Source of the DNA: Terripilifer ovatus
Lineage (GTDB): Bacteria > Pseudomonadota > Alphaproteobacteria > Rhizobiales > Beijerinckiaceae
Length of the DNA stretch: 64,000 nt
Direction: 5' to 3'
Assembly (NCBI GenBank): GCA_029222685.1
Contig: JARHVB010000086.1
Span: 186,001 to 250,000, forward strand
A program made the position numbers and the translations under genes. The notes beneath the pieces are model-generated. The model was not told the DNA's origin and did not search any database. It saw nothing but the letters and a program-made list of their open reading frames with translations. The number at the start of each line of letters is the position of its first letter. Positions within the stretch are counted from its first letter, which is position 1. Of the stretch, positions 15,079-55,822 are shown piece by piece.

Positions 15079-15079
15079 A

Positions 15080-15233: not shown

Positions 15234-15266
15234 GAAGGGCCATCGCGAGGTGGCCCTTCTTGTTTT
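15234..15266 (+). terminator. Rho-independent terminator
   Basis: Nine-base-pair stem GAAGGGCCA (15234-15242) with TGGCCCTTC (15251-15259), eight-base loop, then TTGTTTT. It ends the small plus-strand unit just before the stop of the convergent dioxygenase gene. Confidence 0.85.
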
Positions 15267-40071: not shown

Positions 40072-41073
40072 ATGGAATTGTCGCGCCGCGACATGACACG
40101 ATTGCTATTGGCTGGAGCGCCTCTCCTCACGGCCAAGGATGCGCTGGCGCAGAGCCGTCGGCAGCAACAAACCGCGCCCGCCGCCAAAACGCCAAACGCG
40201 AAAATGCCTGCCGGACGCACGACGATCGTCGAATTCCTCGCCTCGCCGTTTCCCTATGACGGCCGGGTGCCGGACCGCGACACGCCTTTCTACGACGCGA
40301 CCAAGGACGGACGGCGCGGCCACACATCGCCGCGCGGCGGCTTCTATCCCGAAAGCCCGACCTATACGGACCGGCGCGTGCTGCTGCACATCGGCGCCGG
40401 CTTCGACAGTTCAAAGCCCGCGGCGCTGGTCGTCTATCTGCACGGCAATCGCGCCACCCTGGTGCGCGATGTGCGCAATCGCCAGAGGGTGCCGGCGCAA
40501 TTCGATGCGTCGGGCATCAACGGCGTGCTGGTGGCGCCGCAATTCGCCCTGGACGCGCTGGATTCAAGCGCCGGGCATTTCTGGGAGCCGAACTTCTTCA
40601 CCGACTTCCTCAACGAGGCCGCTTCGCGTCTCGGCGAAATGACGAAGATGAGCGGATCGGTGTTTCGCTCCATGCCGATCGTGCTGGTCGCCTACAGCGG
40701 CGGGTACAATCCGGCGGCTTACGCCCTGCAGATCGGCGGCGCGGCCGGGCGCATGCATGGCGTCATCCTGCTCGATGCGCTGTTCGGCGAGCACGAGCGT
40801 TTCGTCAACTGGTTGGTCAACAAGCGCAACGATGCCTTCTTTATCAGCGCCTATGGCCCAGCCTCGCGCGCCCAGAACGCCACGATGAAGCGCATGCTGG
40901 CTGCGCGGGGTCTAGGCCCGCGCGATGGCCGGCCTACTGTCCTATCTCCCGGCAGCATCTGGTTTCTTGATGCCGGCAACGTCGAGCACAATGATTTCGT
41001 CACCAAGGCCTGGGTGCCGGACCCGTTGAAAGTGCTGCTGTCGCAGATCCCCGAGTTCAGGCGCCAGCGATAA
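40072..41073 (+). CDS. Exported alpha/beta-hydrolase-like protein
   Basis: 333 residues. The N-terminus LSRRDMTRLLLAGAPLLT looks like a twin-arginine signal. The body has AALVVYLHGNRATLV (oxyanion region of an alpha/beta hydrolase), MPIVLVAYSGGYNPAA (nucleophile elbow, SGG) and GNVEHNDFVTKAWVPDPL (candidate catalytic His). A polysaccharide or ester substrate is possible but unassigned. It follows the spermidine-synthase-like gene by 26 bases; a TTG at 40042 is an alternative start. Last of the 34842-41073 plus-strand set. Confidence 0.75.
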   Translation: MELSRRDMTRLLLAGAPLLTAKDALAQSRRQQQTAPAAKTPNAKMPAGRTTIVEFLASPFPYDGRVPDRDTPFYDATKDGRRGHTSPRGGFYPESPTYTDRRVLLHIGAGFDSSKPAALVVYLHGNRATLVRDVRNRQRVPAQFDASGINGVLVAPQFALDALDSSAGHFWEPNFFTDFLNEAASRLGEMTKMSGSVFRSMPIVLVAYSGGYNPAAYALQIGGAAGRMHGVILLDALFGEHERFVNWLVNKRNDAFFISAYGPASRAQNATMKRMLAARGLGPRDGRPTVLSPGSIWFLDAGNVEHNDFVTKAWVPDPLKVLLSQIPEFRRQR

Positions 41074-41092: not shown

Positions 41093-42103
41093 TTACGCGA
41101 CGTCCACGGTCACGCCCCGGTTATCATTCAGATGATCGTAGTTCTTGCGAATGGCCCTGCCATAGAGTTCCGCATAGGTGATGGGTTCGTATTTCTTCGG
41201 ACTCTGCTCGGATATGAACACGTCCATCGTGTCGACGACATATTCGGAATTCGGGCTGAAGAAGAAGGGAATGCTGTAGCGCTCCTTGCCGGTATTGTTG
41301 GTGACCCGGTGCGGCGTGGAAATGAAGACGTCGTTTGTCCAGCGCTGCAGGAGATCTCCTGTGTTGACGAGGAAACAATCCGGCAGCACCGGCGCCCGAA
41401 TCCAGTCTTTTCCCTTCGGTCGAATCTCCAGGCCCGGCACCTTGGTCGGCGCGAGGATCGTCATGAAACCGAAATCGGTGTGCGGCGCGATCCCGAATTC
41501 ATTGTTGCCGACGATCTTCTGATCCGGATAGTGCGCGAGACGCAGACTGATCTGCGGATCGGCAAAAGGCGTCCGGAAATACTCCATAGACACGCCGAAT
41601 GCCGCGGCGAAGCCTTCCACCAGCCGCTTCGCCAGCGCCTCCACGACGCCTGTGTAACCCAATAGAGATTCGCGGAACGATGGCAGGTTTTCCGGCCACT
41701 TGTTCAGGCCGCGAAACGGCTTTTTCGCCACCACGTCCGGATCTGCGGGATCGCGCTCCCGCATGATGAAATAGGATTCATTCAAATTCGGCTTGGTATT
41801 GTTGTTGAGTGTCTCGGTCCGCAAGGTGCTGCCTTTAAAAGGCATGAAACCGATATTGTTGCTGTCGACCTTCAGCTTCAATTTGTCGTCTTCGGGCTGC
41901 GAAAAGAAGGCTTCTGCCGCCGCGAAAACACCATCGACCATATCCTGCCGGACACCATGATTTCGTATGAAGAAAAACCCGTAGTCCCTGCTGGCGTCCC
42001 GGATTTGATGTCCGATTGCTTCCGGCTTTCCTTCGAAGAGCGGCACAAGATCGATAATCGGAATGGAACCCAGGGACGTTCCCGTTTGCGATGTATCTGC
42101 CAT
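41093..42103 (-). CDS. Isopenicillin N synthase-like 2OG-Fe(II) oxygenase (first paralogue)
   Basis: 336 residues. N-terminal DIOX_N helix (IPIIDLVPLFEGKPEAI), then the Fe(II) triad in APHTDFGFMTIL (His, Asp) and STPHRV (distal His), with ERYSIPFF giving the R-x-S that holds 2-oxoglutarate. DYGFFFIRNHGV is the family marker. Members hydroxylate, desaturate or cyclise amino acids, nucleobases and similar molecules. Last gene of a minus-strand operon led by livH; a paralogue lies at 43305-44306 with an aminotransferase between them. Confidence 0.88.
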   Translation of the reverse strand: MADTSQTGTSLGSIPIIDLVPLFEGKPEAIGHQIRDASRDYGFFFIRNHGVRQDMVDGVFAAAEAFFSQPEDDKLKLKVDSNNIGFMPFKGSTLRTETLNNNTKPNLNESYFIMRERDPADPDVVAKKPFRGLNKWPENLPSFRESLLGYTGVVEALAKRLVEGFAAAFGVSMEYFRTPFADPQISLRLAHYPDQKIVGNNEFGIAPHTDFGFMTILAPTKVPGLEIRPKGKDWIRAPVLPDCFLVNTGDLLQRWTNDVFISTPHRVTNNTGKERYSIPFFFSPNSEYVVDTMDVFISEQSPKKYEPITYAELYGRAIRKNYDHLNDNRGVTVDVA

Positions 42104-42131
42104 GGCTCAACCTCGGTGACAAAGTGGGGAC

Positions 42132-43262
42132 TCAGAACAGTTTCATGGCTGCAGGCCTTGTCCTGGCATGCTGGACTGCCTCGGGGAGCCGGGCGCAGAA
42201 TTCGTCAGCCCAGAGTTCCGGCACCGATGTGCTGACCTTGATGAAGCGGTCACCAAACCGCGGCGTATGATATACGCCCTGCCGTATCATGATGTTGTGC
42301 TCCTGCATGGCCGCAACGAGCGCCTCGGGCTGGATACCCGCCTGGATGCATTCCACGACAAGAAAATTGCCGTTTGACGGATACACCGGCACGTGGAGGC
42401 CAAGCTCTTCCGCTGCTGTCTTGATTTTCTGCTGGTTCCGGCGCTGCACCCGTTGCACGTCGGGAAACCAGCTATCCTTTACCTCAAGACCTGCCATCGC
42501 AGCGCGTTGCGAGATCACATTGGAACCCAGATTATTAGGCGGTGCTGCTGCCAGCCTGGCGATGAGATCCGGCACGCCGAGCACGGCGCCGATGCGCAGG
42601 CCGGCCAGGCCGAGCCATTTGGAAAAACTGTAGATCGTCAACGTTCCTTCCGGATAGAAGTTGGCGGCAAGCGTGTGACCTTCGGCAAAGTGCCTGTAGG
42701 TGCAATCGTGGATGATGATGGCGTCGTGCCTGCGTGCGATCTGCGCGATGTCTTTCATCTCGTCGGCGGCGATGCATGTCCCAAGCGGGTTGTTGGGATC
42801 GACCAGATAGATGACCTTCATACGCCCGTCGGCAACCTCTTCGAGCTGTGCTGCGGCCAGTCTGTAGTTGCGGACGGGATCATAGATGGGAATCTCGACA
42901 ACTTCGGCACCGATGGCGCGCGCAAAGGACGGCGGCCACTTCCATCCGGGATCGGTCGTAACGAACCGGTCTCCCGCGGCCAGGAATGTATGGCAGACAT
43001 GATAGAGCGCTTCCACGCCGCCATCCGTCACCATGGCGACGGCCTCGGGCAGCCCTATGTCCGCGACGATGGCGGAACGCAAATCCTCGAAGCCCAGAGG
43101 CGGAGCGTAAATCCGGAATTCATCGGCGGCGATGCAGTCAATCATCGCCTGCCGCACGGCGTCCGGCAAAGGATGATGGTTGGTATTCTGCCCCATCCAC
43201 CTGAGTCCAGGCGTGTTGACGAGACGGTCGAAATACCGGTTCCGGATCTCGAAATCATTCAT
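42132..43262 (-). CDS. PLP-dependent class I/II aminotransferase
   Basis: 376 residues, fold type I. The PLP lysine is in SFSKWLGLAGLRIGAVLG; YLVDPNNPLGT gives the conserved asparagine and proline, VTDGGVEALYHVC the N-terminal glycine-rich loop and DCTYRHFAEG the aspartate/tyrosine that hold the cofactor. C-terminal arginine near FGDRFIKVSTS probably binds a carboxylate. Transaminates an amino acid to a keto acid, substrate unknown. It sits between two 2OG oxygenases and after the liv genes, indicating degradation of an imported amino-acid-like compound. Confidence 0.9.
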   Translation of the reverse strand: MNDFEIRNRYFDRLVNTPGLRWMGQNTNHHPLPDAVRQAMIDCIAADEFRIYAPPLGFEDLRSAIVADIGLPEAVAMVTDGGVEALYHVCHTFLAAGDRFVTTDPGWKWPPSFARAIGAEVVEIPIYDPVRNYRLAAAQLEEVADGRMKVIYLVDPNNPLGTCIAADEMKDIAQIARRHDAIIIHDCTYRHFAEGHTLAANFYPEGTLTIYSFSKWLGLAGLRIGAVLGVPDLIARLAAAPPNNLGSNVISQRAAMAGLEVKDSWFPDVQRVQRRNQQKIKTAAEELGLHVPVYPSNGNFLVVECIQAGIQPEALVAAMQEHNIMIRQGVYHTPRFGDRFIKVSTSVPELWADEFCARLPEAVQHARTRPAAMKLF

Positions 43263-43304
43263 GGCGACTCTCGCGAGCAGGCGCGTGTCTCGGAACTGTC
43301 ATCG

Positions 43305-44306
43305 CTAGGCGGTCTCGACAGTCATGTTCTGCGCTTTCAGGTGTTTCGACAGATAGAATTCACCGAACTTGACCGGCGGGTATTTCTCCGCTTCCGCCTC
43401 ACCGTAGAAAGCGCGAATGCACCGGATTTCGGCATTGGCGTTGGGGTTATGGAAGAAAGGAATGCTGAGCCTGCCGATGTGAGCATATTCGGCAGGAGGA
43501 TTTGCGACGCGATGGGGATTGGACACCCATTTGTCGTTGGTCCACCGCATCATCAGATCGCCGATGTTGCAGATGAACGCGTTCGGAAGCGGATGAACAT
43601 CGACCCAGCCTCCGTTGCGCAATTTGACCTGCAATCCCCCCGGCACATCGTCGCCGGTCAGGATCGTCAGCGTGCCATAGTCGGTGTGCTCGCCTGCCCT
43701 GAGCTGGCCCGCCTGTGGCGCTTCGCTCTGCGGCGGATAATAGATCGTCCGCATCGTGCTGGTATGGTGATCGAGCTTGTCGTCGAAATAATGATCGTCG
43801 AGGCCCAGAGCTCTGGCAAAAAGCTGCAGGATATGAAGCGACAGGCGCTCCATCTCGCGATAGTAAGCCTCTGCGGCGGCGGCGAAGCCCGCGGGCGTGT
43901 GCGGCCATGTATTGCGACGGAAGAAATAGCGTTCCGCCAGGGCGCCGCGAACGTCATCGGGCGCTTCATCGATCGGACCCATCGCGAAACTTTCCTGCAG
44001 GTCCGGCGGTGTTTCCTTGCCTGTCGAATAGGCAAGACCGCGGCTGCAGACGTGGCTGTAGCCGCGGCTGATCCTTTCGACAGGCTGAGGAACTTTCTCC
44101 TTCTCCGCAAGCGGCAGGGCGAAGTATTCCCGCGCATTTCTGCGCAGGGCCTCGATCGTCGCATCGGCAACGCCGTGGCCGACGACGGTAAAAAAACCGA
44201 TGTCCTCGCAGGCAGCACGAATGGCTTCGGCGACTTTCTGACGTCCCTCTTCACCGCCTGAAAACGAAGGGCTCAGATCAATGACCGGTACGTTCTCCAT
44301 GGTCAT
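43305..44306 (-). CDS. Isopenicillin N synthase-like 2OG-Fe(II) oxygenase (second paralogue)
   Basis: 333 residues. VIDLSPSFSGGEEGRQKVAE leads the N-terminal helix, CEDIGFFTVVGHGV follows; the triad is in EHTDYGTLTILTGDD and SNPHRV, with GRLSIPFF as the 2-oxoglutarate arginine. The related oxygenase at 41093 shares layout but not close sequence, so they probably act on different steps. ATG 44306 has GGGAGG upstream. Part of the liv-led operon. Confidence 0.88.
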   Translation of the reverse strand: MTMENVPVIDLSPSFSGGEEGRQKVAEAIRAACEDIGFFTVVGHGVADATIEALRRNAREYFALPLAEKEKVPQPVERISRGYSHVCSRGLAYSTGKETPPDLQESFAMGPIDEAPDDVRGALAERYFFRRNTWPHTPAGFAAAAEAYYREMERLSLHILQLFARALGLDDHYFDDKLDHHTSTMRTIYYPPQSEAPQAGQLRAGEHTDYGTLTILTGDDVPGGLQVKLRNGGWVDVHPLPNAFICNIGDLMMRWTNDKWVSNPHRVANPPAEYAHIGRLSIPFFHNPNANAEIRCIRAFYGEAEAEKYPPVKFGEFYLSKHLKAQNMTVETA

Positions 44307-44322
44307 GTTCGTGTCCTCCCGC

Positions 44323-45456
44323 CTATTGCTTGCTGATTTTGGTGGCTTCCAGAACAGCGCTGTCGCCGTTCTGCCATTTCACCAGGAACATATTGAAATT
44401 ATAGCCTTGGCCTTTCTGGTCGAACTTGTAGTTGCCCATGATGCCGGTGTAATCCGTTGCCGCCAGCGCCTTGCGCAAGGCTTCCGGCTCAGTGCTGTTG
44501 GCGCGCTTGATCGCGTCCATCAGAATATGCGCGGTATTGTATCCGGCCGCGGAAAACTTGGTCGGCGCTTCTTTGAAGGCCTTTTTATATCCTTCCGTGA
44601 ACGTCTTGTTTGCGGCGTCATCGATGCCGGGCACCCATTCGAGAATGCCGATCACATTGTTGGTAAATGCGCCCACAAGCTTCGCCCAGGGCTCGGTGCA
44701 AAAGGCGCCCTCTCCCATGATCGGGCCGTTGAAGCCGATCTGGCGCGCCTGCGAGGTGAGGTTGCCCGCGTTCTGAAACCCACCCACGGAGAAGACCGCA
44801 TCTGCGCCTGCCGCGCGGGCCTTCGTCAGATATTCCGTGAGATCAGTTTGCGCCCGGTCGAAAAACTCCGTTGCAACGACGGTGGCGCCCAGGGCCTTGA
44901 AGGCTTCGCCATAGGCCGGCGCCGCCGAGCGCCCCCAATCATCCGAGGTGACGACGAAAGCGACCTTCTTGGCCTTCGTCACTTCCATCAATGTCTTTCC
45001 AAGGGACATGCCGTTCAGCTTGGTCGTCGTCGTCGCACGAAAGAACCAGGGATTACCTTCCTCGGTCAGCCGCTCCGCAGTGGAAACACCGGTGATCAGG
45101 GGACGATTGTATTTCCGGATGGTTTCGGCGACCGCTCCCGTCGCCGAACTGCAACTGGCGCCCAGCAGAGCGACCACGTTGTCCTTTGTCAGCAATTTCT
45201 CCGCCGCGCTGACCGATTGCGCGGGGTTGCAGGCGCCATCCTCGGAAAGGACCTTGACCTTCTTGCCGAGCAGGCCGCCGGCGGCGTTGATCTCATCGGC
45301 AGCGAGTCGCGCACCGTTGAGATTGCTCTGGCCGTCGAGCGCAAGCCCTCCGCTCAGGGGATAGATCGTGCCGATCACGATCTCGTCGTCTGCATGCGCC
45401 GGCAGGGCGAGCAGGGTGCAGGCAAGCAGCAGAGTGGAAAAACGCATAGAAACCAT
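44323..45456 (-). CDS. livK: Branched-chain amino-acid-type ABC substrate-binding protein (LivK type)
   Basis: 377 residues with a signal peptide (MRFSTLLLACTLLALPAHAD), then IVIGTIYPLSGGLALDGQSN, a Leu/Ile/Val-type periplasmic receptor opening (family Peripla_BP_6). LLGASCSSATGAVAETIRKY and AFVVTSDDWGRSAAPAYGEA are typical of receptors for amino acids, amides and aromatic acids. ATG 45456 is chosen because CAGGAG lies 7 bases upstream; a start at 45474 would overlap livF. Directly follows the LivFGMH transporter genes and feeds them. Confidence 0.92.
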   Translation of the reverse strand: MVSMRFSTLLLACTLLALPAHADDEIVIGTIYPLSGGLALDGQSNLNGARLAADEINAAGGLLGKKVKVLSEDGACNPAQSVSAAEKLLTKDNVVALLGASCSSATGAVAETIRKYNRPLITGVSTAERLTEEGNPWFFRATTTTKLNGMSLGKTLMEVTKAKKVAFVVTSDDWGRSAAPAYGEAFKALGATVVATEFFDRAQTDLTEYLTKARAAGADAVFSVGGFQNAGNLTSQARQIGFNGPIMGEGAFCTEPWAKLVGAFTNNVIGILEWVPGIDDAANKTFTEGYKKAFKEAPTKFSAAGYNTAHILMDAIKRANSTEPEALRKALAATDYTGIMGNYKFDQKGQGYNFNMFLVKWQNGDSAVLEATKISKQ

Positions 45457-45470
45457 GGCGAAGCTCCTGT

Positions 45471-46235
45471 TCATCTTGTGGTAGCTAAAGGGTCCTTGGC
45501 TAAAGGGTCCTGTATCAATCGGCCTTGCTTTTCTTCGCCGAGATAGGCGCGTTTCACATCCGGATCCTGTAACAGATCGCGTGCGCGGCCCTGCTTGGCG
45601 ATGCTGCCGTTCTCGAGAACGAAGGCCCGGTCCGCATGAGGGAGCGCGAGCGCCGCACTCTGCTCAACCATGAGAATCGATGTTCCATCGCGATGAATGG
45701 CGCGGATAACGTCGATCACCTGCTCGACGACGAGCGGCGCCAGTCCGAGATTGGGTTCGTCCAGCATCAGCAGCTTGGGCCGCGACATCAAGGCGCGGCC
45801 GATCGCAACCATCTGCTGCTCGCCGCCCGAGAGCGTCCCGCAGACTTGCTTTCTGCGTTCGAGCACTTTCGGGAAGATTGCGTAAACGCGATCGATGTCT
45901 CGGGCGACTTCCTTTGTGTCCTTTCGCCCGAACGCCCCCAGCCGCAGATGTTCCTGAACGGTGATATGGGGCCATATCTTGCGCTCCTCGGGGCAGTGAG
46001 CAATTCCGGCACGGACAATCTGCGCGCATGAGGCGCGTTCGATCGGCTGGCCGTTGAAGATAACCCGCCCCTCGTATGGCGGCGTCAATCCGGAGATGGC
46101 CCGCAGCAACGTCGTCTTCCCGGCCCCATTGGCGCCAATGAGGGCAACGAATTCTCCTGCCGCTATGGTCAGGGAAATCTGCCGCAAGGCCACGACCCCG
46201 CCGTAGCGGCAGCTCAGGGATTCAACCGACAGCAT
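45471..46235 (-). CDS. livF: Branched-chain amino-acid-type ABC transporter ATPase (LivF type)
   Basis: 254 residues. Walker A is GANGAGKTTL, the signature is LSGGEQQMVAIGRAL, Walker B is LLMLDEPNLGLAP, H-loop near LMVEQSAALAL. LivF-type ATPases end in a short tail; here a direct duplication in DNA adds DPLAKDPLATTR. The last bases overlap a possible start of the receptor gene. Energises import with LivG. Confidence 0.93.
   Translation of the reverse strand: MLSVESLSCRYGGVVALRQISLTIAAGEFVALIGANGAGKTTLLRAISGLTPPYEGRVIFNGQPIERASCAQIVRAGIAHCPEERKIWPHITVQEHLRLGAFGRKDTKEVARDIDRVYAIFPKVLERRKQVCGTLSGGEQQMVAIGRALMSRPKLLMLDEPNLGLAPLVVEQVIDVIRAIHRDGTSILMVEQSAALALPHADRAFVLENGSIAKQGRARDLLQDPDVKRAYLGEEKQGRLIQDPLAKDPLATTR
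45484..45513 (-). repeat. 15-bp tandem duplication at the 3' end of livF
   Basis: GCTAAAGGGTCCTTG at 45484-45498 is followed directly by GCTAAAGGGTCCTGT at 45499-45513 (13 of 15 bases identical). In the coding sense it repeats DPLA-K/T near the C-terminus, in frame. Confidence 0.85.
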
Positions 46236-46998
46236 CGGTCACCCATTCGCGTCCGAGATAGGCCTTGATCACATCACGGTTCTGGCTGACAGCCTCCGGC
46301 GTACCCTCCGCGATCTTCTCGCCATGATGAACGACGACGATCTGATCCGACACCCCCATCACGACATTCATGTTGTGCTCGACCAGGACGATAGTGATCT
46401 TCTGCTTTTGCAATCGGCGCACCAATGTCGAGAACCGCGACGATTCCTCTGCATTCAAGCCGCTGGACGGCTCGTCCAGCAGCAACAGGCGCGGGCGTGC
46501 CGCCAATCCGACCGCGATTTCCAGCAACCGCTGCTCGCCGTAGGACAGCTCCTGCGCGAGATATTCGGATTTGCTGTGCAGGCCGACCATTTCGAGAATG
46601 TCGGCAACTTCCAAGACCGAGTTCTTGACGAAGGCCGCGACCTCGGCCTTGCCGGTCAGGACGCTGAAGAGGCTCGGCTGGAAATTGTTCAGCAGGCCGA
46701 TGCGCACGCATTCCATGACCGTCAGCGCCGGAAACACTTCGGTTTTCTGGAACGTCCGGATCAGGCCGTGTTTTGCGATCCTGTGCGGCAACAGCCCCGT
46801 AACAACAGAGCCGGCAAACCTGACCTGCCCTGCCGTCGGCTTTTGAAAGCCGGTCACGATGTTGAAAAGCGTCGTTTTGCCCGCGCCATTGGGGCCGATC
46901 ACACTGACGACCTGTCCCTCCGGCACCGAAAACGAGATGCCTTTCAGAGCCGCGATGCCGCCGAAATTCATAAAGATGTTGTCGACGTCAAGCAGCAT
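46222..46998 (-). CDS. livG: Branched-chain amino-acid-type ABC transporter ATPase (LivG type)
   Basis: 258 residues. Walker A GPNGAGKTTLFNIVTGF, signature LSYGEQRLLEIA, Walker B LLLLDEPSSGLNA and IVLVEHNMNVVMG. ATG 46998 gives the normal start MLLDVDNIFMNFGGI; an upstream in-frame stretch lacks family sequence. It overlaps livM by 11 bases and livF by 14. Confidence 0.93.
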   Translation of the reverse strand: MLLDVDNIFMNFGGIAALKGISFSVPEGQVVSVIGPNGAGKTTLFNIVTGFQKPTAGQVRFAGSVVTGLLPHRIAKHGLIRTFQKTEVFPALTVMECVRIGLLNNFQPSLFSVLTGKAEVAAFVKNSVLEVADILEMVGLHSKSEYLAQELSYGEQRLLEIAVGLAARPRLLLLDEPSSGLNAEESSRFSTLVRRLQKQKITIVLVEHNMNVVMGVSDQIVVVHHGEKIAEGTPEAVSQNRDVIKAYLGREWVTDAVG

Positions 46999-47992
46999 GG
47001 TCGCGGCTCCGCAGACGCAGAAAGGCCGGACGCAGCCAGCGTGACCACAATTCGACAATACCGTTGGGGAAAGCCAGCACGGTTGCCAGCAGGACGACGC
47101 CCACAAGAACCAGTCGGTATTGCGCGACGACGCGCAGATATTCGGGCAGGAACGTGAAGGCTATGGCGCCGACGATCGGCCCGAGGATCGTCGCCTTGCC
47201 GCCGATCACCACCATCACCAGCATCGTCACGGTGTAGGAAAAAAAGAACAGGTCGGGACTGACGAAGCCTGTGTAGTGGGCATAGAGAGAGCCCGCGATG
47301 CCGGCGAAGAATGCGCCAACGACGAAAGCGATCATCGCATGGCGAAACGCGCTGACCCCGACGGACTCGCCCAGGTTTTCGTTTTCCCGCAATGCCAGCA
47401 ATCCCCAGCCGATGGGGGAATGGACGATGCGCGCGACCGTCCAGACGCAGATGGCTGCGCCACCGACGGCCAGGAAATAGAAGGCGGTCTTGGATGCGAA
47501 GTCGATCGTGCCGACGCCGGGGATCGTGATGACCGGAGCCGCAATGCCCGGCAATCCCATTTGCCCGCGCGTCAGGTCCACCGCGTTCACGGCGATCAGA
47601 CGCATGATTTCAACAAATGCCAGCGACGTAATAACGAAACGATGACCCCGAACCTTGAGGAAAAGAGAGCCGACGCAGATCGCGGCAATTGCGCTTACGA
47701 TTCCGGCTGCGGGCAAGCCAACCCACATCGAAAACTTGAAATTCATAAAGAGCAGCGCGGACGTATAGGCGCCGATGCCGAAGAAGGCTGCGTGAGCGAG
47801 GGACAGAAGCCCTCCATAGCCCATGATCAGTGAAAGGCTCGACGAAAGGATTACGAAGATCGCCGAGACGATCAGCAGATGCAATTCGTACCCCGTCAGG
47901 CCGATGAACGGCAAAGCGACGAGGACAGCCGCAAGGACCGGCCAGCGCAGGAACAATCCGGTGCGCGGATCAAGATTTCTTGAAAAGGCCAT
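46988..47992 (-). CDS. livM: Branched-chain amino-acid-type ABC permease (LivM type)
   Basis: 334 residues, about nine membrane helices. LIMGYGGLLSLAHAAFFGIG is the conserved LivM/LivH motif (GyxGxxSLahaaf.GiG), and GVSAFRHAMIAFVVGAFFAG fits the permease core with EAA-like loop. Overlaps both neighbours on the minus strand. Together with livH it forms the pore. Confidence 0.93.
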   Translation of the reverse strand: MAFSRNLDPRTGLFLRWPVLAAVLVALPFIGLTGYELHLLIVSAIFVILSSSLSLIMGYGGLLSLAHAAFFGIGAYTSALLFMNFKFSMWVGLPAAGIVSAIAAICVGSLFLKVRGHRFVITSLAFVEIMRLIAVNAVDLTRGQMGLPGIAAPVITIPGVGTIDFASKTAFYFLAVGGAAICVWTVARIVHSPIGWGLLALRENENLGESVGVSAFRHAMIAFVVGAFFAGIAGSLYAHYTGFVSPDLFFFSYTVTMLVMVVIGGKATILGPIVGAIAFTFLPEYLRVVAQYRLVLVGVVLLATVLAFPNGIVELWSRWLRPAFLRLRSRDHAA

Positions 47993-48830
47993 CGGGACGA
48001 TACAGCATGATAATGATCACGAGGACGAAGCCGATTGCGTCTTTATAGGCCGAGGAGACAACCGTCCCCAGACTTTCGGCAACGCCTAAAAAGATCCCGC
48101 CGACGATGCTGCCGGGAATGCTGCCAAGACCTCCAAGGATGACGACAATAAAAGCTTTGAGCGATTCCGTCGCGCCCATGGCCGGCTGAACAAAGAAGAT
48201 CGCGCCGAGAAGCGCGCCTCCCAATGCGGCGAGGCCGGCGCCCAGGGCGAAGGTGATGCCGCGCATGCGATCGATCGGAATGGCGACCAGGGCCGCCGCC
48301 TCCGTCTGCTGGAACGTCGCGCGCATCGCCGTTCCGTAGAGCGTGTGATTCAGGAACACATACATCAACACAAGCGTCGCTGCGGTGACGGCGACGGCGA
48401 AAAGCCGCGCTTCCGTCGTGAAGATCGGACCTAACTGCAGGGGAAAAGCCGAAAACGATGTCGGAATGGCCTGTGGCTGCGGCCCGAAGAAAATGAGCGC
48501 GCCATTCTGCAGGATCAGGCCAAGGCCGATCGTCGCAAGAACGCTGGACATCGCCGACTTCAGGCGCAACTGCCGGAACACCACGCGCTCGAGAAGAAAC
48601 CCGAGACCTGTCACGACCGCAACGGAAACCGGCACAGCGACGAGATAAGGGGCATTGAGCTTCGCGGCGATGAAATAAGTGATGCAGCCGCCCAGCATGT
48701 AAAATTCGCCATGGGCGAAATTGGCGATGTTCATGATGCCGAAGATCATCGTCATGCCGATCGCCACCAACGCGTAGCTCATCCCGATAAGCAGGCCGTT
48801 GAAGACGAACTGGGGAAGAAGATCGAGCAT
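47970..48830 (-). CDS. livH: Branched-chain amino-acid-type ABC permease (LivH type)
   Basis: 286 residues, about eight membrane helices. FNGLLIGMSYALVAIGMTMI, IMNIANFAHGEFYMLGGC and GLGSIPGSIVGGIFLGVAES are typical LivH motifs. First gene of a minus-strand operon of at least eight genes (livH-M-G-F-K, oxygenase, aminotransferase, oxygenase). Its start at 48830 faces the SDR gene at 48943 across a 112-base divergent promoter. Confidence 0.93.
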   Translation of the reverse strand: MLDLLPQFVFNGLLIGMSYALVAIGMTMIFGIMNIANFAHGEFYMLGGCITYFIAAKLNAPYLVAVPVSVAVVTGLGFLLERVVFRQLRLKSAMSSVLATIGLGLILQNGALIFFGPQPQAIPTSFSAFPLQLGPIFTTEARLFAVAVTAATLVLMYVFLNHTLYGTAMRATFQQTEAAALVAIPIDRMRGITFALGAGLAALGGALLGAIFFVQPAMGATESLKAFIVVILGGLGSIPGSIVGGIFLGVAESLGTVVSSAYKDAIGFVLVIIIMLYRPDGLFKKS

Positions 48831-48856
48831 TCGTGCGATCCAGCCGATTTGATTTC

Positions 48857-48926
48857 TGTACGCTAGAAGGATTTTTGCATGGACACAAGCCTAAATTTGC
48901 GTACATTAAATCGTAGTATGCGCACA
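48857..48926. promoter_or_regulatory. Divergent promoter with inverted repeats, candidate GntR operator
   Basis: TGTACGC (48857-48863) and GCGTACA (48899-48905) are perfect inverse copies 35 bases apart, followed by GTATGCGCACA (48916-48926). They lie between the livH operon and the SDR/GntR operon, where a GntR (VanR/FCD) regulator encoded at 49764 would be expected to bind. The match to any known operator consensus is not shown. Confidence 0.4.
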
Positions 48927-48942
48927 TGTTAGGCAGAGCGAC

Positions 48943-49731
48943 ATGAATCTGGGATATGAAGGCAAAGTCGTCGTCGTCACCGCGGGAAGCGGCGGCCTTG
49001 GCAGATCGATCGCGGAAGAATTTGCGTCGGAAGGAGCGACGGTCGTCATCGCGGCCCGCAACAAGGAGCGGTTGCAAGCAGCCGCCGACCAGATCGCTGC
49101 AAAGACGGGTGTCACACCGTTGATCCAGCTTGCGGACTGCACGGTGGAAAGCGACATCGCGGCCTTGGTCGCCGACACCGTTTCGCGGTGCGGCCGCATC
49201 GACGTGATGCTGTGCAATTCCGTCGGGCCGCGCACAGCGCCGTTCGAAGATATGACCGACGCACTATGGCGCGAGGCTTTCGAGACAAAGATACTGGCGC
49301 AGATCCGCTGCGCGCGTGAGGCCTTTCGGGTGATGAAGGAACAGCGCTCGGGCTGCATCCTCTTCATGGCCGGAACACACGGCCGGCAACCGCGCACGTA
49401 TTCCGTCACGGCAGGCGTTTCCAATGCAGCGCTCATCAACGCCAGCAAGGTTTTGGCCGAGGCTGCGGCGCCCTATGATATCCGCGTCAACGTCATCAAT
49501 CCCGGTCCGATCGAGACGGAGCGGATGGTCTATCTGGTGAAGGAGAAAGCGACCGAGCTTGGAATTTCAGAGCCGGCCGCGAAACGCATCCTCGCCGACG
49601 TGACTTTGCTCAAACGCTTCGGCCTGCCGGAAGAGGTCGCAGCCGCGGTGGTGTTTCTCGCCTCCGCCCGCGCCAGTTTCGTGACGGGAACGATGCTGGA
49701 CATCGATGGCGGACAAGTGCAAGCGATCTAG
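48943..49731 (+). CDS. SDR-fold protein with altered catalytic site
   Basis: 262 residues with the SDR cofactor motif TAGSGGLGRSI (about 12-22) and the end TGTMLDIDGGQVQ. Where the active-site tyrosine and lysine (YxxxK) precede AAL, this protein reads AGVSNAALIN, so Tyr is Ala and Lys is Asn; the usual serine position is also altered (MAGTHGR). It may be a divergent-site SDR or an NAD(P)-binding partner protein. ATG 48943 has a GGCAGAGCG region upstream. First gene of the plus-strand arm of the island. Confidence 0.8.
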   Translation: MNLGYEGKVVVVTAGSGGLGRSIAEEFASEGATVVIAARNKERLQAAADQIAAKTGVTPLIQLADCTVESDIAALVADTVSRCGRIDVMLCNSVGPRTAPFEDMTDALWREAFETKILAQIRCAREAFRVMKEQRSGCILFMAGTHGRQPRTYSVTAGVSNAALINASKVLAEAAAPYDIRVNVINPGPIETERMVYLVKEKATELGISEPAAKRILADVTLLKRFGLPEEVAAAVVFLASARASFVTGTMLDIDGGQVQAI

Positions 49732-49763
49732 GCGGAGTGGGCGCGGCAAAGCATAAGGTCTTG

Positions 49764-50498
49764 ATGATGGTGCAAGCAAAAAAGACTACGGTGTCTGTCA
49801 AAGCGGCCGTGAAGACCCGCAATACCAGGGGCGAGGAATTGCGGGCTATCCTTGAAGAGGCGATCATTCAGGGTGAGTATCCGCCGGGTGCGCGCCTGGA
49901 AGAGCAGGAACTGGCCGAACGTTATAAGATGTCGCGCACGCCTGTGCGCGAGACGTTGCGGCTTCTCGCCTCCACGGGCCTCGTCGAGATGCGGGCGCGG
50001 CAAGGCGCCGTGGTGGCAACGCTGCCCATTCCAAAATTGATCGAGATGTTTCAGGTCATGGCCGAACTGGAGGGATTGTGCGCGAGACTGGCCGCGCGGC
50101 GTTGCCTTCCCCAGAAGCTGCGCGAGATCGAGGAACATCACAGGGCTTGCGCGGACGGCGTGGGCGCGAACGATCCGGAAGCCTTCTATGCCGCGGATCG
50201 CGTTTTTCACGATTCGATCTACGAGGCGTCCGGCAGCCAGTTCCTGCAGGAATCGGTGCGAACCCTTCGCAATCGCGTGTCGCCGTACCGGCGCTACGTG
50301 ACCTATCAGCCTGGCCGGATGCTTGAGTCGGTCCGCGAGCACGAACTGGTCGTCGATGCCATACGCCGCGGCGATGGCGAAGAGGCGCATCGTGCGATGC
50401 GCGATCATGTCAATCTTCTGGGCGACCGGTTTGCCGACTTTGTTTCATCGCTGCCCTTCGGCATGGGCCACGCCGAGACAAAACTCATCGCCTCATAG
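49764..50498 (+). CDS. GntR family transcriptional regulator (FCD/VanR-like)
   Basis: 244 residues. N-terminal winged helix (about 20-85) with GEYPPGARLEEQELAERYKM and SRTPVRETLRLLASTGLVE; C-terminal all-helical FCD ligand domain (about 95-230) with FHDSIYEASGSQFLQ (candidate metal His), VREHELVVDAIRRGD and AHRAMRDHVN. Such regulators respond to carboxylic or amino-acid ligands and usually repress adjacent catabolic genes. Probably controls both arms of the 41-52.6 kb island. ATG 49764 (or 49767) has AAGGTC upstream. Confidence 0.9.
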   Translation: MMVQAKKTTVSVKAAVKTRNTRGEELRAILEEAIIQGEYPPGARLEEQELAERYKMSRTPVRETLRLLASTGLVEMRARQGAVVATLPIPKLIEMFQVMAELEGLCARLAARRCLPQKLREIEEHHRACADGVGANDPEAFYAADRVFHDSIYEASGSQFLQESVRTLRNRVSPYRRYVTYQPGRMLESVREHELVVDAIRRGDGEEAHRAMRDHVNLLGDRFADFVSSLPFGMGHAETKLIAS

Positions 50499-50510
50499 GA
50501 AAGATCGGCC

Positions 50511-51398
50511 ATGAGCTATGCGACAACTGCCGACGGCGTGCGCCTCTACACCGAAGAAACCGGTTCGGGTACACCGATCGTTTTCGTCCATGAATTCGGC
50601 GACAACTATCACTCCTGGGATCATCAGGTCGAGTTTTTCTCCCGCCGCTACCGCTGCATTACCTTTGCGGCGCGCGGCTATCCGCCGTCGGACGTGCCGC
50701 AGAATGTCGATGCTTATTCGCAGGCGCTTGCCATGCAGGATATTCTTGCCGTCATGGACCATCACGAGGTGCCGCGCGCGCATGTCATCGGGTGCTCGAT
50801 GGGCGGGTTCGCGGCGCTGCATTTCGGTTTGAACCATCCCGACCGGGCGCTTTCGCTGGTGGCCGCCGGAGCCGGCTATGGTGCCGAAAAGGCGCATGAA
50901 CAGTATTTCCGCGATGTCTCGAACCAGGTCGCCGAGCGGTTTGAAACCCTGGGCAGCAAGGCATTCTCGAGCATCTACGGCTCGGGTGCTTCGCGCGTTC
51001 AGTACCAGAACAAGAACCCCGCCGGCTGGCAGCGCTTCATCGCGCGCCTGGCGCAACATGATTCGCGCGGCGCGGCCAATACGATGCGTGGCGTCCAGGC
51101 GCGCCGTCCGTCGCTCTATGATCTCGAGGCCGGGTTCCGGAACATGGCGGTGCCGACCCTTATCGTGGTCGGCGACGAAGACGATCATTGCCTGCAGCCC
51201 GGCATTTTTCTCAAGCGCACCATTCCGGCCAGCGGCCTCATGGTCGTGCCGAAGAGCGGCCATGCCGTCAATCTGGAAGAGCCGACAGTCTTCAATCAGG
51301 CGGTCGCCGAATTTCTTGCGATGGTCGAAGCGGGCCGCTGGGCTCCGCGCGATCCGCGCGCCAGAGCCGAGCAGATCATGCAGGTCGGCGCGCCATGA
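50511..51398 (+). CDS. Alpha/beta hydrolase
   Basis: 295 residues. IVFVHEFGDNYHSWDHQ carries the oxyanion region, IGCSMGGFAAL the nucleophile elbow (Ser in GCSMG), GDEDDH the acid and SGHAVNLEEP the His. This form is seen in hydrolases of lactone, carbamate or ring-opened intermediates. It overlaps the next gene by 4 bases (ATGA), so it is translationally coupled to the amidohydrolase. Substrate not evident. Confidence 0.88.
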   Translation: MSYATTADGVRLYTEETGSGTPIVFVHEFGDNYHSWDHQVEFFSRRYRCITFAARGYPPSDVPQNVDAYSQALAMQDILAVMDHHEVPRAHVIGCSMGGFAALHFGLNHPDRALSLVAAGAGYGAEKAHEQYFRDVSNQVAERFETLGSKAFSSIYGSGASRVQYQNKNPAGWQRFIARLAQHDSRGAANTMRGVQARRPSLYDLEAGFRNMAVPTLIVVGDEDDHCLQPGIFLKRTIPASGLMVVPKSGHAVNLEEPTVFNQAVAEFLAMVEAGRWAPRDPRARAEQIMQVGAP

Positions 51399-52642
51399 CT
51401 CGTTTCGGCCGGATCGCCGCCTGCATCGACGAAGACCGGCTCTGGCAGCGACACGAGGATCTTGCCCGCTTCGGTGCGACGGAGCGCGGCGGCGTCAACC
51501 GGCAAGCCTTGTCCGAGGCCGATTTCGCGGCGCAGCGACAGCTCATCGCCTGGGCGCAGGCGCTCGATCTGTCGCCGTCCGCGGATGCGGCGGGCAATCT
51601 GTTCCTGCGGATGGAAGGGCGCGACAACAACCTGCCGCCGGTGCTTTCGGGCTCGCATATCGACTCACAGCCGACGGGCGGCAAATACGACGGTACCTTC
51701 GGCGTGCTGGCCGGGCTCGAGGTCGTTGCCGCCATGCGCGAGGCGCACGTACAGCCGCTCCGGCCTCTCGATATCGTCGCGTGGATGAATGAAGAAGGGT
51801 CTCGCTTCGCCCCCGGCATGATGGGGTCGGAGGCTTTCGCCGGCGTCCGCCCTTTGCAAACGATTCTGGACGTCAAAGACGGCGCGGGCATATCCGTCGC
51901 CGAAGCCCTCAAACATCGTCTCGACCTGCCGCAAAGACCGCTGGGATTCCCGATCGCCGCCTTCATCGAGGCGCACATCGAGCAGGGACCGGAACTGGAA
52001 ATCACGCAGCGCCAGATCGGCACCGTCACCGGCATCCAGGGCAAGAAGACGTTCAGCGTCTCGATCCTGGGCGAGGAAGGCCATGCCGGAACGACGCCGC
52101 GGCGCGTCCGGAAAGATGCATTGGCGAGTGCCGCCGGCATCATCCACGCGCTTCATCGCGAAATCCGCGACGATGAAGATCAGGTCCGTTTCACGATCGG
52201 GCGTTTGACGGTCGTCCCCAATGCGCCATCTGTCATACCAGGACGAGTCACGTTTTCCGTTGACCTCCGGCATCCGCTGCAATCATCTCTCGAAGCCTTC
52301 GGCCAGCGGCTCGTCGAGATCGTGGAAAGTTCGGCGGCGCCGTGTACGGCGACGATCGAACGGCTGGTCGACGCGCCCTCGCTTGTCTTTCCTGCCGCCA
52401 TTCAGGATCTCATCAGGGACAGCGCGTCAAAACTCGGCATATCGAACATGGATATGCCATCGGCAGCGGGCCATGACGCGCGCAATGTCCATGTCGTCGC
52501 CCCCTCCGGAATGATCTTCATACCCTGCGAAAAGGGCATCAGCCATAACGAGGCGGAGGCCGTGTCGCGGGCGGACCTCGCTGCCGGAGCAAGAGTTCTT
52601 GCCGAAGTGCTGGCCCAGCTCACCGACATGACCGAGATCTGA
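51395..52642 (+). CDS. Zn-dependent amidohydrolase of the N-carbamoyl-L-amino-acid hydrolase/allantoate family (M20-like)
   Basis: 415 residues. Metal ligands and hinge motifs are visible in LSGSHIDSQPTGGKYDGTFG (His, Asp), MNEEGSRFAPGMMGSEAFAG (Glu), FIEAHIEQGPELE (His) and SAAGHDARN (His). The family cleaves N-carbamoyl amino acids, allantoate or ureidoglycolate-like ureido compounds, releasing ammonia and CO2. ATG 51395 overlaps the hydrolase stop. Its presence suggests the imported compound carries a ureido, carbamoyl or amide group. Confidence 0.88.
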   Translation: MTRFGRIAACIDEDRLWQRHEDLARFGATERGGVNRQALSEADFAAQRQLIAWAQALDLSPSADAAGNLFLRMEGRDNNLPPVLSGSHIDSQPTGGKYDGTFGVLAGLEVVAAMREAHVQPLRPLDIVAWMNEEGSRFAPGMMGSEAFAGVRPLQTILDVKDGAGISVAEALKHRLDLPQRPLGFPIAAFIEAHIEQGPELEITQRQIGTVTGIQGKKTFSVSILGEEGHAGTTPRRVRKDALASAAGIIHALHREIRDDEDQVRFTIGRLTVVPNAPSVIPGRVTFSVDLRHPLQSSLEAFGQRLVEIVESSAAPCTATIERLVDAPSLVFPAAIQDLIRDSASKLGISNMDMPSAAGHDARNVHVVAPSGMIFIPCEKGISHNEAEAVSRADLAAGARVLAEVLAQLTDMTEI

Positions 52643-52650
52643 TTAGCGCC

Positions 52651-53820
52651 TCATTTCGCCGTAACGCGGCCCGTTTCATCCGCGCGGAAGGTTCCTGATG
52701 TCTTGCCGCCGAGGCTGCCGTTGCGCAGCCAGTCGAGCGAGGCCCGGTGCAGCACCCGGCGCTGCTTTTCCCAGACGACGAAATGGGTCGCGGCGGCAAT
52801 ACCGAGGAACACCTTCTGGGCCGCGCCGAGATCGGCGAAGAGATCGACATTGGATTTCGTCAACTCGTCCTGCTCGCCGACCATGAGCAATGTCGGCACG
52901 GTGATCTTCTTCGCCGCATTGGCATTCCAGCCCCAATAGGTGCGCGTCGGCGCGCGCAGGGCGCCGCTGCCCCAGGTGGCGGCGAGCGGATCGGCCGGGC
53001 CGTTCAGCGCCCATATATAATCGGGCATGCCCGGCTCGATGGTGTCGGGAAATTTCGATGTGCCGAGCCAGCGCTGATCGATGCCGACGGCGCGCGTCTG
53101 GATCGTCACCGGCACGCCGGCCTTCGGCAAGGGCGGCGCCGTGTCGGGATTTTTGCGGTTGTAGTTGGACGAGGCCAGAATGACGTAGCGGTCGACCTTC
53201 TGGGGAAAGCGCGAAACGAACGTGCCGGTCCTGATGCCGCCGCCCGACCAGCCAATGAGGGAAATCTTGTCGACCTTGCGTAGCTTGCGGATGTAGTCGA
53301 CGACGGCGTTCACATCCGCCGTCTCGCTGTCGGAGTTGACCAGTTCGAACTTGTATTTCGGCTCGCAGACGTCCGGCAGCGTCTTCGGTATCAGCAATTT
53401 CTGCTGCGCCGGCGACAGATTGCACGGATCGTCCATCATCGGATGGCCGGAGCGGCCATAGCCGGTCATGTCCATGGCGAAGACATCGAAGCCGGCGCGG
53501 GCGAGAAATTCCATCCAGCTATAGTCGCGATAGGGCACGTCGAAAGCGAGCGTCGAGGGCGAATAGCCGCCGTGGACGAAGAGCACGACCTTGCGATCGA
53601 AGGCCTCGCCCTGCCCGGCCTCGAGCAATTTCGCGCCGATCTTTTCGCGCACGAACAGATCGATCTTCTGGCCGGCGATGGCGGGCACGGTCGAGGTGTG
53701 ATCGATGAGACGGTCGATGGTCAGGAGATTGCCCGATTGCGCATCCGCCGCCATCGGCAGGCTGGACATTGCCATCGCCGCCGACGCCAGCATTCCCCGC
53801 GTGAAATCGATCATCCGCAT
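52651..53820 (-). CDS. Exported alpha/beta hydrolase
   Basis: 389 residues with a signal peptide (MLASAAMAMSSLPMAADAQ). VVLFVHGGYSPSTLAFDVPY (HG oxyanion), MDMTGYGRSG, the nucleophile LIGWSGGGIRTG, LLMVGEQDELTKS (acid) and AAATHFVVWEKQ (His) form a full triad. Extended cap loops with two extra cysteines. Start ATG 53820 follows GGGAGGAG. Periplasmic esterase or similar; unrelated in operon terms to the island. Confidence 0.88.
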   Translation of the reverse strand: MRMIDFTRGMLASAAMAMSSLPMAADAQSGNLLTIDRLIDHTSTVPAIAGQKIDLFVREKIGAKLLEAGQGEAFDRKVVLFVHGGYSPSTLAFDVPYRDYSWMEFLARAGFDVFAMDMTGYGRSGHPMMDDPCNLSPAQQKLLIPKTLPDVCEPKYKFELVNSDSETADVNAVVDYIRKLRKVDKISLIGWSGGGIRTGTFVSRFPQKVDRYVILASSNYNRKNPDTAPPLPKAGVPVTIQTRAVGIDQRWLGTSKFPDTIEPGMPDYIWALNGPADPLAATWGSGALRAPTRTYWGWNANAAKKITVPTLLMVGEQDELTKSNVDLFADLGAAQKVFLGIAAATHFVVWEKQRRVLHRASLDWLRNGSLGGKTSGTFRADETGRVTAK

Positions 53821-53886: not shown

Positions 53887-54915
53887 CTAATTCGGCTTGG
53901 AAGCCACCTTGGCCTGTTCGAACGTCGCCATGTCGTTATGGCAGGCGACGGCCGCCTTGATCAGGCCGACGGCGAGCGCGGCGCCGCTGCCTTCGCCGAG
54001 CCGCATGCCGAGATCGAGCAGCGGCTTCTTGCCGAGACGGCTGAGCACTTCGCCATGAGCGCCCTCGGACGAGAGATGGCCGGCGATGCAATGATCGATG
54101 CTGGACGGATCGAGCGCATGCAGGATGGCGGCGGCCGCCGTCACCACATAGCCGTCGAGCACGACGGGAATGCGCTCCATCCGCGCCGCCATGATGGCGC
54201 CGGCCAGCGCGCAGATTTCGCGGCCGCCGACCCGGCGCATGACTTCCAGCGGATCGCGCAGATGGGCCTTGTGCAGGGCCACTGCCTTCTCGACGGCGGC
54301 GGCCTTGCGGTTCAGCCCGGCATCATCGACGCCGGTGCCGCGCCCGACCCAGTCGCGCGCTTCGCCGCCATAGAGCGCGTGGTAGATGGCGGCGGCGATG
54401 GTGGTGTTGGCGATGCCCATTTCGCCCAGGCAGAGCAGGTCGGCGCCGCCCGCGATCGCCTCCATGCCGAAGGCGAAGGTCGCGGCGGCCGCCTTTTCAT
54501 CCAGAGCCGCCTCCTGCGTGATGTCGCCGGTGGGAATATCGAGCGCCAGGTCGAACACTTTTAGTCCGATGTCGTAGGTGGCGCAGATCTGGTTGATCGC
54601 CGCGCCGCCGGCGGCGAAGGTCTCCAGCATCTGCCGCGTCACCGCCTGCGGATAGGCGGAGACGCCCTGCGCCGCGACGCCGTGATTGGCGGCGAACACC
54701 GCCACCATCGGGCGCAATACGGCCGGCTGCGAGCGGCCCTGCCAGGCGGCCAGCCATTCGACGATCTCCTCCATGCGGCCGAGCGCGCCGGCGGGCTTCA
54801 CCAGCTCCTGATCCCGCGCGCGCACGATGTCGACGCAGGTGTCGGAGGCCTGGGGCATTTGCGGCAGCAGCGCGCGGATATCGTCGAAGGGAAGGCCGGT
54901 GGGCGTATGGGACAT
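53887..54915 (-). CDS. cobT: Nicotinate-nucleotide-dimethylbenzimidazole phosphoribosyltransferase
   Basis: 342 residues, normal length. [50 protein letters not shown] and [17 protein letters not shown] are conserved, and the catalytic Glu is near the C-terminus ([17 protein letters not shown]). It makes alpha-ribazole phosphate for the lower ligand of vitamin B12. ATG 54915 lies in a 103-base divergent gap with cobS; no B12 riboswitch fold was seen there. Confidence 0.95.
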
Positions 54916-55018
54916 GTGGGATTCCAATTACGCGCCGGATGTAGCCGGTCGCAGGCGCGAATGCAAAAGAACGTCCACAACCGCTCGACAAGCCGTTTCC
55001 GGCAGCCGATGCTGCGCC

Positions 55019-55822
55019 ATGATCGACTTCAAAGCTTTCGCCGCGGACCTTCTCGCCTGCCTGCGGTTCTACTCGCGCCTGCCGGTGCCGTCCCTCGCCT
55101 TCGAGGCCGACCCGCACATCATGCCGGATTTTTCGCGTATCGCCCGGGTGCTGCCGGTGGCCGGCGTGATCATCGCCCTTCCGGCCACCGTGGTGCTGGC
55201 CATCGCCAGTGCCGCCGGGATTCCGGCCCTGCCGGCGAGCGGCCTGGCGCTGGCGGCGCTGGTGGCGACCACCGGGGCTTTCCATGAGGACGGACTGGCC
55301 GATACCGCCGACGGCTTCGGCGGCGGCACGACGCGCGCGCGCAAGCTGGACATCATGAAGGACAGCCGCATCGGCACCTACGGCGGCGCGGCGCTGGTGC
55401 TGTCGCTTGGCCTGCGCTGGAGCGGCCTCGCCGCCCTCATCGACATGCGCGGCACCGAGGCGGCCCTCCTGATCCTGATCGCCGCCGCCGCTTTCTCCCG
55501 CCCCCTTGGACTGACGCCGCTGTTCGCGCTCCCGCCCGCCCGGACGGATGGCGCGGCGCAGGCGGCCGGTCCGCTGCCGGCGGACGCCTACATCCTCTCT
55601 GTGGCCGGCGGCGCGGCGATCGCGCTTCTGCTGACGCTGGCGCATGTCGATCTCGGCGATACGGCATTAGGCCTCTGGCTGACCGCAAGCGCAACCGCCT
55701 TCGCCGGCGCCCTCTCCGTCACGGCGCTGTCCTACCGCCAGATCGGCGGTCAGACCGGCGACGTCGCAGGCGCCACCCAGCAGGTGGCCGAAATCGTCTT
55801 TCTTCTGGTTTTTCTGACATGA
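55019..55822 (+). CDS. cobS: Adenosylcobinamide-GDP ribazoletransferase
   Basis: 267 residues, a membrane protein with about six helices. [29 protein letters not shown] (metal-binding acidic cluster) and [18 protein letters not shown] are diagnostic. It joins GDP-cobinamide with alpha-ribazole in the last step of cobalamin synthesis. Divergent from cobT with which it completes the lower-ligand assembly. The aspartic protease gene follows 43 bases later. Confidence 0.93.

Follow-up and report, generated by a model that had tools for sequence, protein, structure and literature searches.

Twelve genes at positions 41093-52642 of a 64,000-nucleotide window of Terripilifer ovatus DNA (G000:C85:186001-250000, from a 7.2-Mb genome that is 99.4% complete) form an island tentatively explained, with a probability of about 0.42, as the local form of a modular unit for degrading a nucleobase-like, probably pyrimidine-type, nitrogen heterocycle. 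The island encodes a short-chain dehydrogenase/reductase (SDR), an aminotransferase (AT), an alpha/beta hydrolase (ABH), an M20 amidohydrolase (M20), a GntR/FCD-type regulator (GntR), a Liv-type importer with its receptor and two 2-oxoglutarate (2OG) Fe(II) oxygenases (OgA and OgB). The first four constitute the core, which is shared by several bacterial families, is also found on plasmids of legume-associated rhizobia and Methylobacterium, and offers a testable way into the missing parts of heterocycle catabolism.

A conserved core in relatives of the island

To identify relatives of the island, genomes were searched with AT only. Strong matches came from the class (8 of 384 further genomes; E up to 1e-90), from a phylum draw (3 of 397) and from the order (17 of 396; E up to 1e-100 for the last two), with three genomes belonging to both the phylum and order draws. 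None of 50 other genomes of the own genus gave an AT match (E up to 1e-60). The distribution of AT across genomes is patchy. An AT with 93% identity (P0121) was also recognized. The 25 genomes with AT yielded 25 loci, all of which were fetched with at most about 10 kb on each side of AT. One of them, L104, was the exact reverse complement of L013, a 5.9-kb contig ending inside ABH, and was represented by L013 in the map of 30 loci. Kinship was noted for L105-L107, for L131 with L134 and for L132 with L133.

M20 was present in 24 of the 25 AT-found loci, with the contig end in L104/L013 being able to hide it in the remaining one. ABH was also present in 24 (the exception was L109), as was an SDR at least 50% identical to either of two types (the exception was L141), and a related GntR was found in 17. 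The commonest gene order was SDR-AT-ABH-M20 or AT-SDR-ABH-M20 on a single strand. The whole T. ovatus genome contains just two M20 matches, the island copy included, and the grouping of M20 with AT in 24 of 25 relatives therefore exceeds chance.

The identities of the core proteins also co-varied. Pairwise identity matrices were compared after removal of the near-relatives L106, L107, L133 and L134 and with inclusion of the window and the OgB-found loci; r, to which common descent adds, reached 0.836 for AT and M20 (23 loci), 0.809 for AT and ABH (23 loci), 0.729 for AT and GntR (19 loci) and 0.715 for ABH and M20 (22 loci), values attained in none of 2000 permutations each. The correlation of AT with SDR was weak (0.211 for 22 loci including the other-type SDR of the window; 25 of 2000 permutations). 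The SDR of the window belongs to the type found in L109 and L110 (52-53% identity) and shares about 30-35% identity with the commoner type.

These data bear on the possibility that two unrelated operons with a common divergent promoter region became neighbours by chance. AT and ABH/M20 do sit on different arms here and OgA had no counterpart in the mapped relatives, but the presence of ABH and M20 around AT in the relatives contradicts such an explanation for these three genes. It is contradicted for the importer and OgB by L013, in which livG, livF, the receptor gene, OgB, SDR, AT and ABH all lie on one strand. A chance origin is thus regarded as highly improbable. A preliminary description of the sequence had proposed a single catabolic unit for a nitrogen-containing compound, and the relatives bear this out, as AT, SDR, ABH and M20 belong together; separate occurrence of the arms, named there as the outcome that would speak against it, was not found for the enzymes. 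In the window, AT has been relocated to the side of the importer genes, and the two-armed layout represents a single module rearranged locally.

The core is also carried by plasmids. AT was detected in 9 of 72,556 plasmid records (E up to 1e-60), six of which were fetched and mapped; one of the six, Tistrella mobilis pTM2, shares the L105 sequence. Upstream of the relatives' cores, TATACAA-type words were enriched (9 of 25 regions vs a shuffled mean of 0.4) and may represent a GntR operator.

Interchangeable importers, oxygenases and accessory genes

The genes surrounding the core differed among the relatives. Liv genes with at least 50% identity were present in two of the 25 AT-found loci (L103 and L104/L013), OgB in one (L104/L013) and OgA in none, OgA being the best match to no gene of the 30 mapped loci. 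Because of these low counts, the importer and the oxygenases are considered interchangeable, and a definition of the system by its two arms, its Liv importer and its pair of oxygenases is not supported. The receptor itself stayed below the NCBIfam cut-offs for leucine and urea receptors, PRK15404 (154.5 bits, cut-off 477) and UrtA TIGR03407 (89.7 bits, cut-off 492.75). NMT1/THI5-type receptors were found in 18 of the 25 loci, and other importers were of the Tct (L012 and L136), TRAP (L109 and L110) and sugar-type ABC (L108, L129 and L143) kinds. A class II aldolase-family protein was encoded in eight loci, a flavin mononucleotide (FMN) monooxygenase of the NtaA/DmoA kind in six, an amidase in seven, a cupin in five and a nucleoside hydrolase in two.

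An alignment search with OgB revealed 230 encoding stretches in genome contigs, the best 80 of which were analysed. Among these 80, seven were at least 55% identical to OgB and six of the seven were accompanied by core genes (L010, L011, L012, L013, L014 and L087), with AT and M20 absent from the fetched stretch of L010 and M20 from that of L011. No core genes were detected in the seventh locus, L009, in which the fetched DNA stops 937 bases away from the OgB match. For the 73 relatives below 55% identity, AT with at least 50% identity was found in none and M20 at 46% in L044. OgB is therefore a real but minority partner of the core, since most close OgB loci hold core genes, yet a single AT-found locus holds OgB. 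The L014 cluster encodes a second 2OG oxygenase, which is nearer OgB (40.5%) than OgA (29.4%).

Fifteen OgB-related matches were found in the T. ovatus genome, the island's two included. At L089 (G000:C84), an OgB-like gene (about 9.1 kb) and an OgA-like gene (about 10.1 kb), 46% and 35% identical to OgB, form an adjacent pair with no AT or M20 match nearby.

The variety of attached genes could also mean that the core is the shared tail of several pathways, which handles one ring-opened intermediate, the attached parts varying as the substrates truly differ from locus to locus. The sets observed comprise 2OG oxygenases, an NtaA/DmoA-type FMN monooxygenase with a class II aldolase, an amidase, a cupin, enoyl-CoA hydratase-like and flavin oxidase-like proteins, and a TRAP importer with a RutB-like hydrolase. 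However, such an explanation leaves the intermediate unnamed, and the nucleoside context in two locus groups agrees with a single substrate class. It is judged quite unlikely.

Substrate clues from the relatives

A nucleoside context was seen in Rhizobium sp. CB3171 (L187, pCB3171_2) and CB3060 (L191, pCB3060_2), which carry a closely related core on plasmids typed as conjugative. The genes are arranged in the order BMP-type ABC importer, AT, SDR, ABH, M20, nucleoside phosphorylase and deoC. The best model for the phosphorylase was uridine phosphorylase (219 and 217 bits, under the cut-off of 280.3). Upstream of the rhizobial core lies a gene for phosphopentomutase, which scored 508.6 bits against a cut-off of 256 in the CB3171 scan; downstream of the CB3060 core, a thymidine phosphorylase was identified (675 bits, cut-off 570.7). 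The two strains are rhizobia from Calliandra and Leucaena, and the importer region of CB3171 contains an IS701 transposase.

A nucleoside hydrolase, with UriH or RihC as the best NCBIfam model but under the cut-off, was encoded near the core in L108, L129 and L189 (Neorhizobium galegae). In Methylobacterium aquaticum, genes for an FMN monooxygenase and a flavin reductase lie near each other, and in L128 the core is followed by a RutF-like flavin reductase (241.7 bits, cut-off of 254.75 not reached). One representative NMT1 receptor matched proteins of pyrimidine-precursor type in the PDB, namely the formylaminopyrimidine-binding protein 3ix1 and THI5. The NMT1/THI5 receptors, the nucleoside hydrolases, the uridine-phosphorylase-like protein with deoC and the thymidine phosphorylase therefore indicate a nucleobase-like heterocycle. 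Of the two substrate classes initially suggested, an amino-acid-like compound is not favoured in view of these genes, whereas a heterocycle is retained.

Several observations weigh against the pyrimidine-type substrate. Neighbours resembling 8-oxoguanine deaminase in L138 and allantoinase and RutB in L109, all under curated cut-offs, would agree with purine- or hydantoin-like substrates as well. The NCBIfam matches of the NMT1 receptors were of the sulfonate/taurine type, far below the cut-off, and neither a nucleoside hydrolase nor a nucleoside phosphorylase was present in the searched stretches of 23 of the 25 loci retrieved with AT (that of L013 for L104). Moreover, no obvious ring-opening enzyme was recognized among the twelve island proteins.

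The L109 neighbours also speak for a pathway that breaks down a hydantoin, a ureide or an N-carbamoylated amino acid, in which M20 would release the free amino acid, AT would convert it to the keto acid and SDR to the hydroxy acid, while the 2OG oxygenases would hydroxylate the side chain. This is in line with M20 passing the hydantoinase/carbamoylase model and with the Peripla_BP_6 receptor, the PDB matches of which were mostly receptors of branched-chain amino acids and amides. On the other hand, the cluster lacks a hydantoinase, M20 does not reach the cut-off of the allantoate deiminase model, and the NMT1/THI5 receptors, nucleoside phosphorylase/hydrolase and thymidine phosphorylase of the relatives are left unexplained. 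Such a pathway is considered unlikely.

The match of the NMT1/THI5 receptor to the formylaminopyrimidine-binding protein, one of six in the PDB, is compatible with yet another kind of substrate, a heteroaromatic ring with substituents, for instance the pyrimidine of thiamine or a compound akin to vitamin B6. M20 would then deformylate or deacylate an aminomethyl ring, AT would produce the aldehyde and SDR the lactone or acid, ABH would open the lactone, and a class II aldolase-type decarboxylase and the FMN monooxygenase would finish the ring. The vitamin B6 enzyme Mlr6791 (2z7b, 56 bits) was among the weaker PDB matches of the class II aldolase-family protein mentioned above. Lys342 of AT also agrees with this proposal, as it stands where aspartate aminotransferases presumably place the carboxylate-binding Arg, a position assigned by chain-end offset and not by residue alignment. 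The window cluster has neither a class II aldolase nor an NMT1 system, however, and the deoxyribose genes beside the rhizobial core would be unaccounted for. This reading appears improbable, slightly more so than that of a shared tail.

OgB and OgA in comparison with thymine 7-hydroxylase

The best structural match of OgB was thymine 7-hydroxylase (T7H), with an identity of about 33%. OgA is 34.2% identical to OgB and has a putative facial triad of H208, D210 and H265. The metal and cosubstrate residues of T7H are given in PMC4787775 as His214, Asp216, His271, Arg190, Tyr194, Arg286 and Ser288. Their OgB counterparts, assigned by numbering offset and not by residue alignment, are H207, D209, H265, R186, Y190, R279 and S281, which were invariant in 30 of 30 aligned sequences except for S281 (25 S and 5 T). 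These Fe/2-oxoglutarate residues are common to the wider family.

The base-binding residues of T7H are Phe292, Tyr217, Asn294, Asn87 and Glu122. By offset, F285 (30/30), Y210 (28/30, 2 F) and N287 (30/30) of OgB correspond to the first three of these five. Residues matching F285, Y210 and N287 occur beyond T7H.

Island genes and catalytic motifs

All genes named in the preliminary description, and their two divergent arms, were confirmed as open reading frames with families assigned by Pfam/NCBIfam (Table 1). Gene content and packing were read directly from the DNA. The arms flank a gap of 112 bp, with livH, livM, livG, livF, the receptor gene, OgB, AT and OgA following each other outward from the centre on the minus strand (48830 to 41093) and SDR, GntR, ABH and M20 on the plus strand (48943 to 52642). 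Within each arm, the genes are spaced by 5-42 bp or overlap by 4-23 bp according to the frame coordinates, with 4-bp overlaps for receptor/livF and ABH/M20. The livG start was set at the ATG at 46998 (the listed frame opens with TTG at 47106). The M20 start was set at the ATG at 51395, as the best family matches begin at residue 79 or later of the listed frame, which runs from 51188 inside ABH.

Table 1. Features of the island and their positions in the window.
Feature	Position	Strand	Basis
OgA, second 2OG-Fe(II) oxygenase, 336 aa	41093..42103	-	Pfam DIOX_N + 2OG-FeII_Oxy
AT, pyridoxal phosphate (PLP)-dependent class I aminotransferase, core gene	42132..43262	-	Pfam Aminotran_1_2; NF004870
OgB, 2OG-Fe(II) oxygenase	43305..44306	-	Pfam DIOX_N + 2OG-FeII_Oxy; closest solved fold thymine 7-hydroxylase
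LivK-type periplasmic receptor	44323..45474	-	Peripla_BP_6, 264.5 bits
LivF ATPase	45471..46235	-	ABC_tran; best NCBIfam PRK11614 LivF, 243.6 bits, cut-off 441 not reached
LivG ATPase	46222..46998	-	ABC_tran + BCA_ABC_TP_C
LivM permease	46988..47992	-	BPD_transp_2
LivH permease	47970..48830	-	BPD_transp_2
Divergent intergenic region, presumed shared control region	48831..48942		Sequence; one weak sigma-70-like match
SDR oxidoreductase	48943..49731	+	adh_short_C2
GntR/FCD-type regulator	49737..50498	+	GntR + FCD; homologues in 17/25 relatives
ABH, alpha/beta hydrolase, core gene	50511..51398	+	Abhydrolase_1
M20 amidohydrolase, hydantoinase/carbamoylase family, core gene	51395..52642	+	Peptidase_M20; TIGR01879

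The sigma-70-like match in the divergent gap is on the plus strand and fits 9 of 12 positions (one match in 48600-49200; shuffles gave a mean of 0.3, sd 0.6). The GC content is 60.0% for the island vs 62.4% for the window, with one of 105 overlapping stretches of the same length being lower, and the composition of the island thus differs mildly from that of the window.

Catalytic motifs are retained in the core enzymes. AT passed NF004870 (PRK06225 aminotransferases; 479.2 bits, cut-off 351), and has a structure model with a mean pLDDT of 91.3 and Lys215 at the expected PLP site; K215 and K342 were kept in 30 of 30 aligned sequences. The putative catalytic residues of ABH are S96, D222 or D224, and H251, with D222 and H251 present in 28 of 28 sequences and S96 invariant in the consensus. 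The best NCBIfam model for ABH was PcaD (96 bits, below the cut-off of 255.85), and its assignment as RutD was rejected (68.6 bits vs the TIGR03611 cut-off of 238.5). M20 passed the hydantoinase/carbamoylase model TIGR01879 (375.8 bits, cut-off 204) and was rejected as the allantoate deiminase AllC (256.5 bits vs the TIGR03176 cut-off of 597.75). In its GHDAR mark, R363 was found in 27 of 27 sequences, and the five solved relatives displayed have C or I at this position.

Genes beside the island

A gene for an alpha/beta hydrolase with an apparent signal sequence (52651-53820, minus strand) is convergent with M20 and was the best tblastn match nowhere in the 30 mapped relative loci. Cobalamin genes encoding a DBI_PRT phosphoribosyltransferase (CobT type) and CobS adjoin the island at 53887-55822. 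On the other side, two long plus-strand frames (37382-40045 and 40072-41073) had no Pfam match at E 0.001, and the former resembles, by eye, a multi-span membrane protein. A match to the Rfam CC2171 Caulobacter sRNA was found at 15056-15257 on the plus strand (76.4 bits vs a gathering score of 75).

Proposed working of the island

In the favoured reading of a nucleobase-like heterocycle, the substrate, the order of steps, the regulation and the ring opening are predictions. The compound would be imported by the receptor with LivHMGF and oxidized by OgB and then, in a second step, by OgA, possibly at a methyl group or a ring carbon by analogy with T7H. The ring could open because oxidation leaves it labile or through an enzyme encoded elsewhere; the only match in the genome over the hydantoinase cut-off (TIGR02033) is on contig C18, and the window lies on C85. 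After ring opening, M20 may act on an intermediate with a carboxylate and release from it a carbamoyl or comparable N-acyl group, and AT may take off the freed amino group. SDR would oxidize or reduce the carbonyl, and an intermediate that is an ester, a lactone or an enamine would be hydrolysed by ABH. GntR would respond to the compound or a breakdown product.

A more specific version, in which the module is an additional, not yet described bacterial route for the catabolism of pyrimidine nucleobases, is put forward as doubtful. A 2OG oxygenase or an FMN monooxygenase would carry out an oxidative attack before carbamoyl hydrolysis and transamination take place, and the mobile SDR-AT-ABH-M20 core on which the route is built would be joined to interchangeable importers of nucleosides or bases. 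If the pyrimidine reading is true, it would add to the few known routes, and a T7H-like oxygenase would gain a degradative role in bacteria.

Comparison with known systems

Literature searches for this gene combination found no fitting description, in agreement with the initial statement that no pathway with the exact set was known; most subscription papers were outside the coverage, so an earlier account is possible. The Rut pathway is approached by the weak RutD match of ABH and by relatives that have an FMN monooxygenase, one the RutF-like reductase of L128 and one a RutB-like hydrolase (120.2 bits, cut-off 377.95). It differs in that the representative monooxygenase of L011 scored 545 with NtaA/DmoA TIGR03860 vs 76 with RutA (cut-off 498.3), and the aminotransferase and M20 of the island are additional. 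No luciferase-like protein was detected by Pfam among the twelve proteins of the cluster, to which the RutA search was limited.

The reductive pyrimidine pathway is approached by M20, a family member of 8c46 (274.9 bits), which is an N-carbamoyl-beta-alanine amidohydrolase, and a transaminase step would come there after the amidohydrolase. In contrast to that pathway, the locus has no dihydropyrimidinase (TIGR02033 was exceeded on C18 only), and ABH and the 2OG oxygenases are not known to have a role in it. Hydantoinase/carbamoylase systems share the M20 enzyme that passes TIGR01879, but no hydantoinase is present among the twelve cluster proteins, and AT, ABH, SDR and the oxygenases are added. 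In the degradation of vitamin B6 by Mesorhizobium loti, the logic of aminotransferase, SDR, decarboxylase and hydrolase resembles the island, whereas the gene families differ for most steps.

Fungal T7H and OgB are alike in fold and, by offset, in metal and cosubstrate positions, but the fungal enzyme serves nucleotide anabolism (PMC4787775), and OgB belongs to a predicted degradation island. A T7H-like 2OG oxygenase within a gene cluster for a nitrogen heterocycle is also found in Aspergillus nidulans, where HxnY lies in the nicotinate-use cluster and has an unsettled role (PMC9304392). The system described here is classed as a modular catabolic island.

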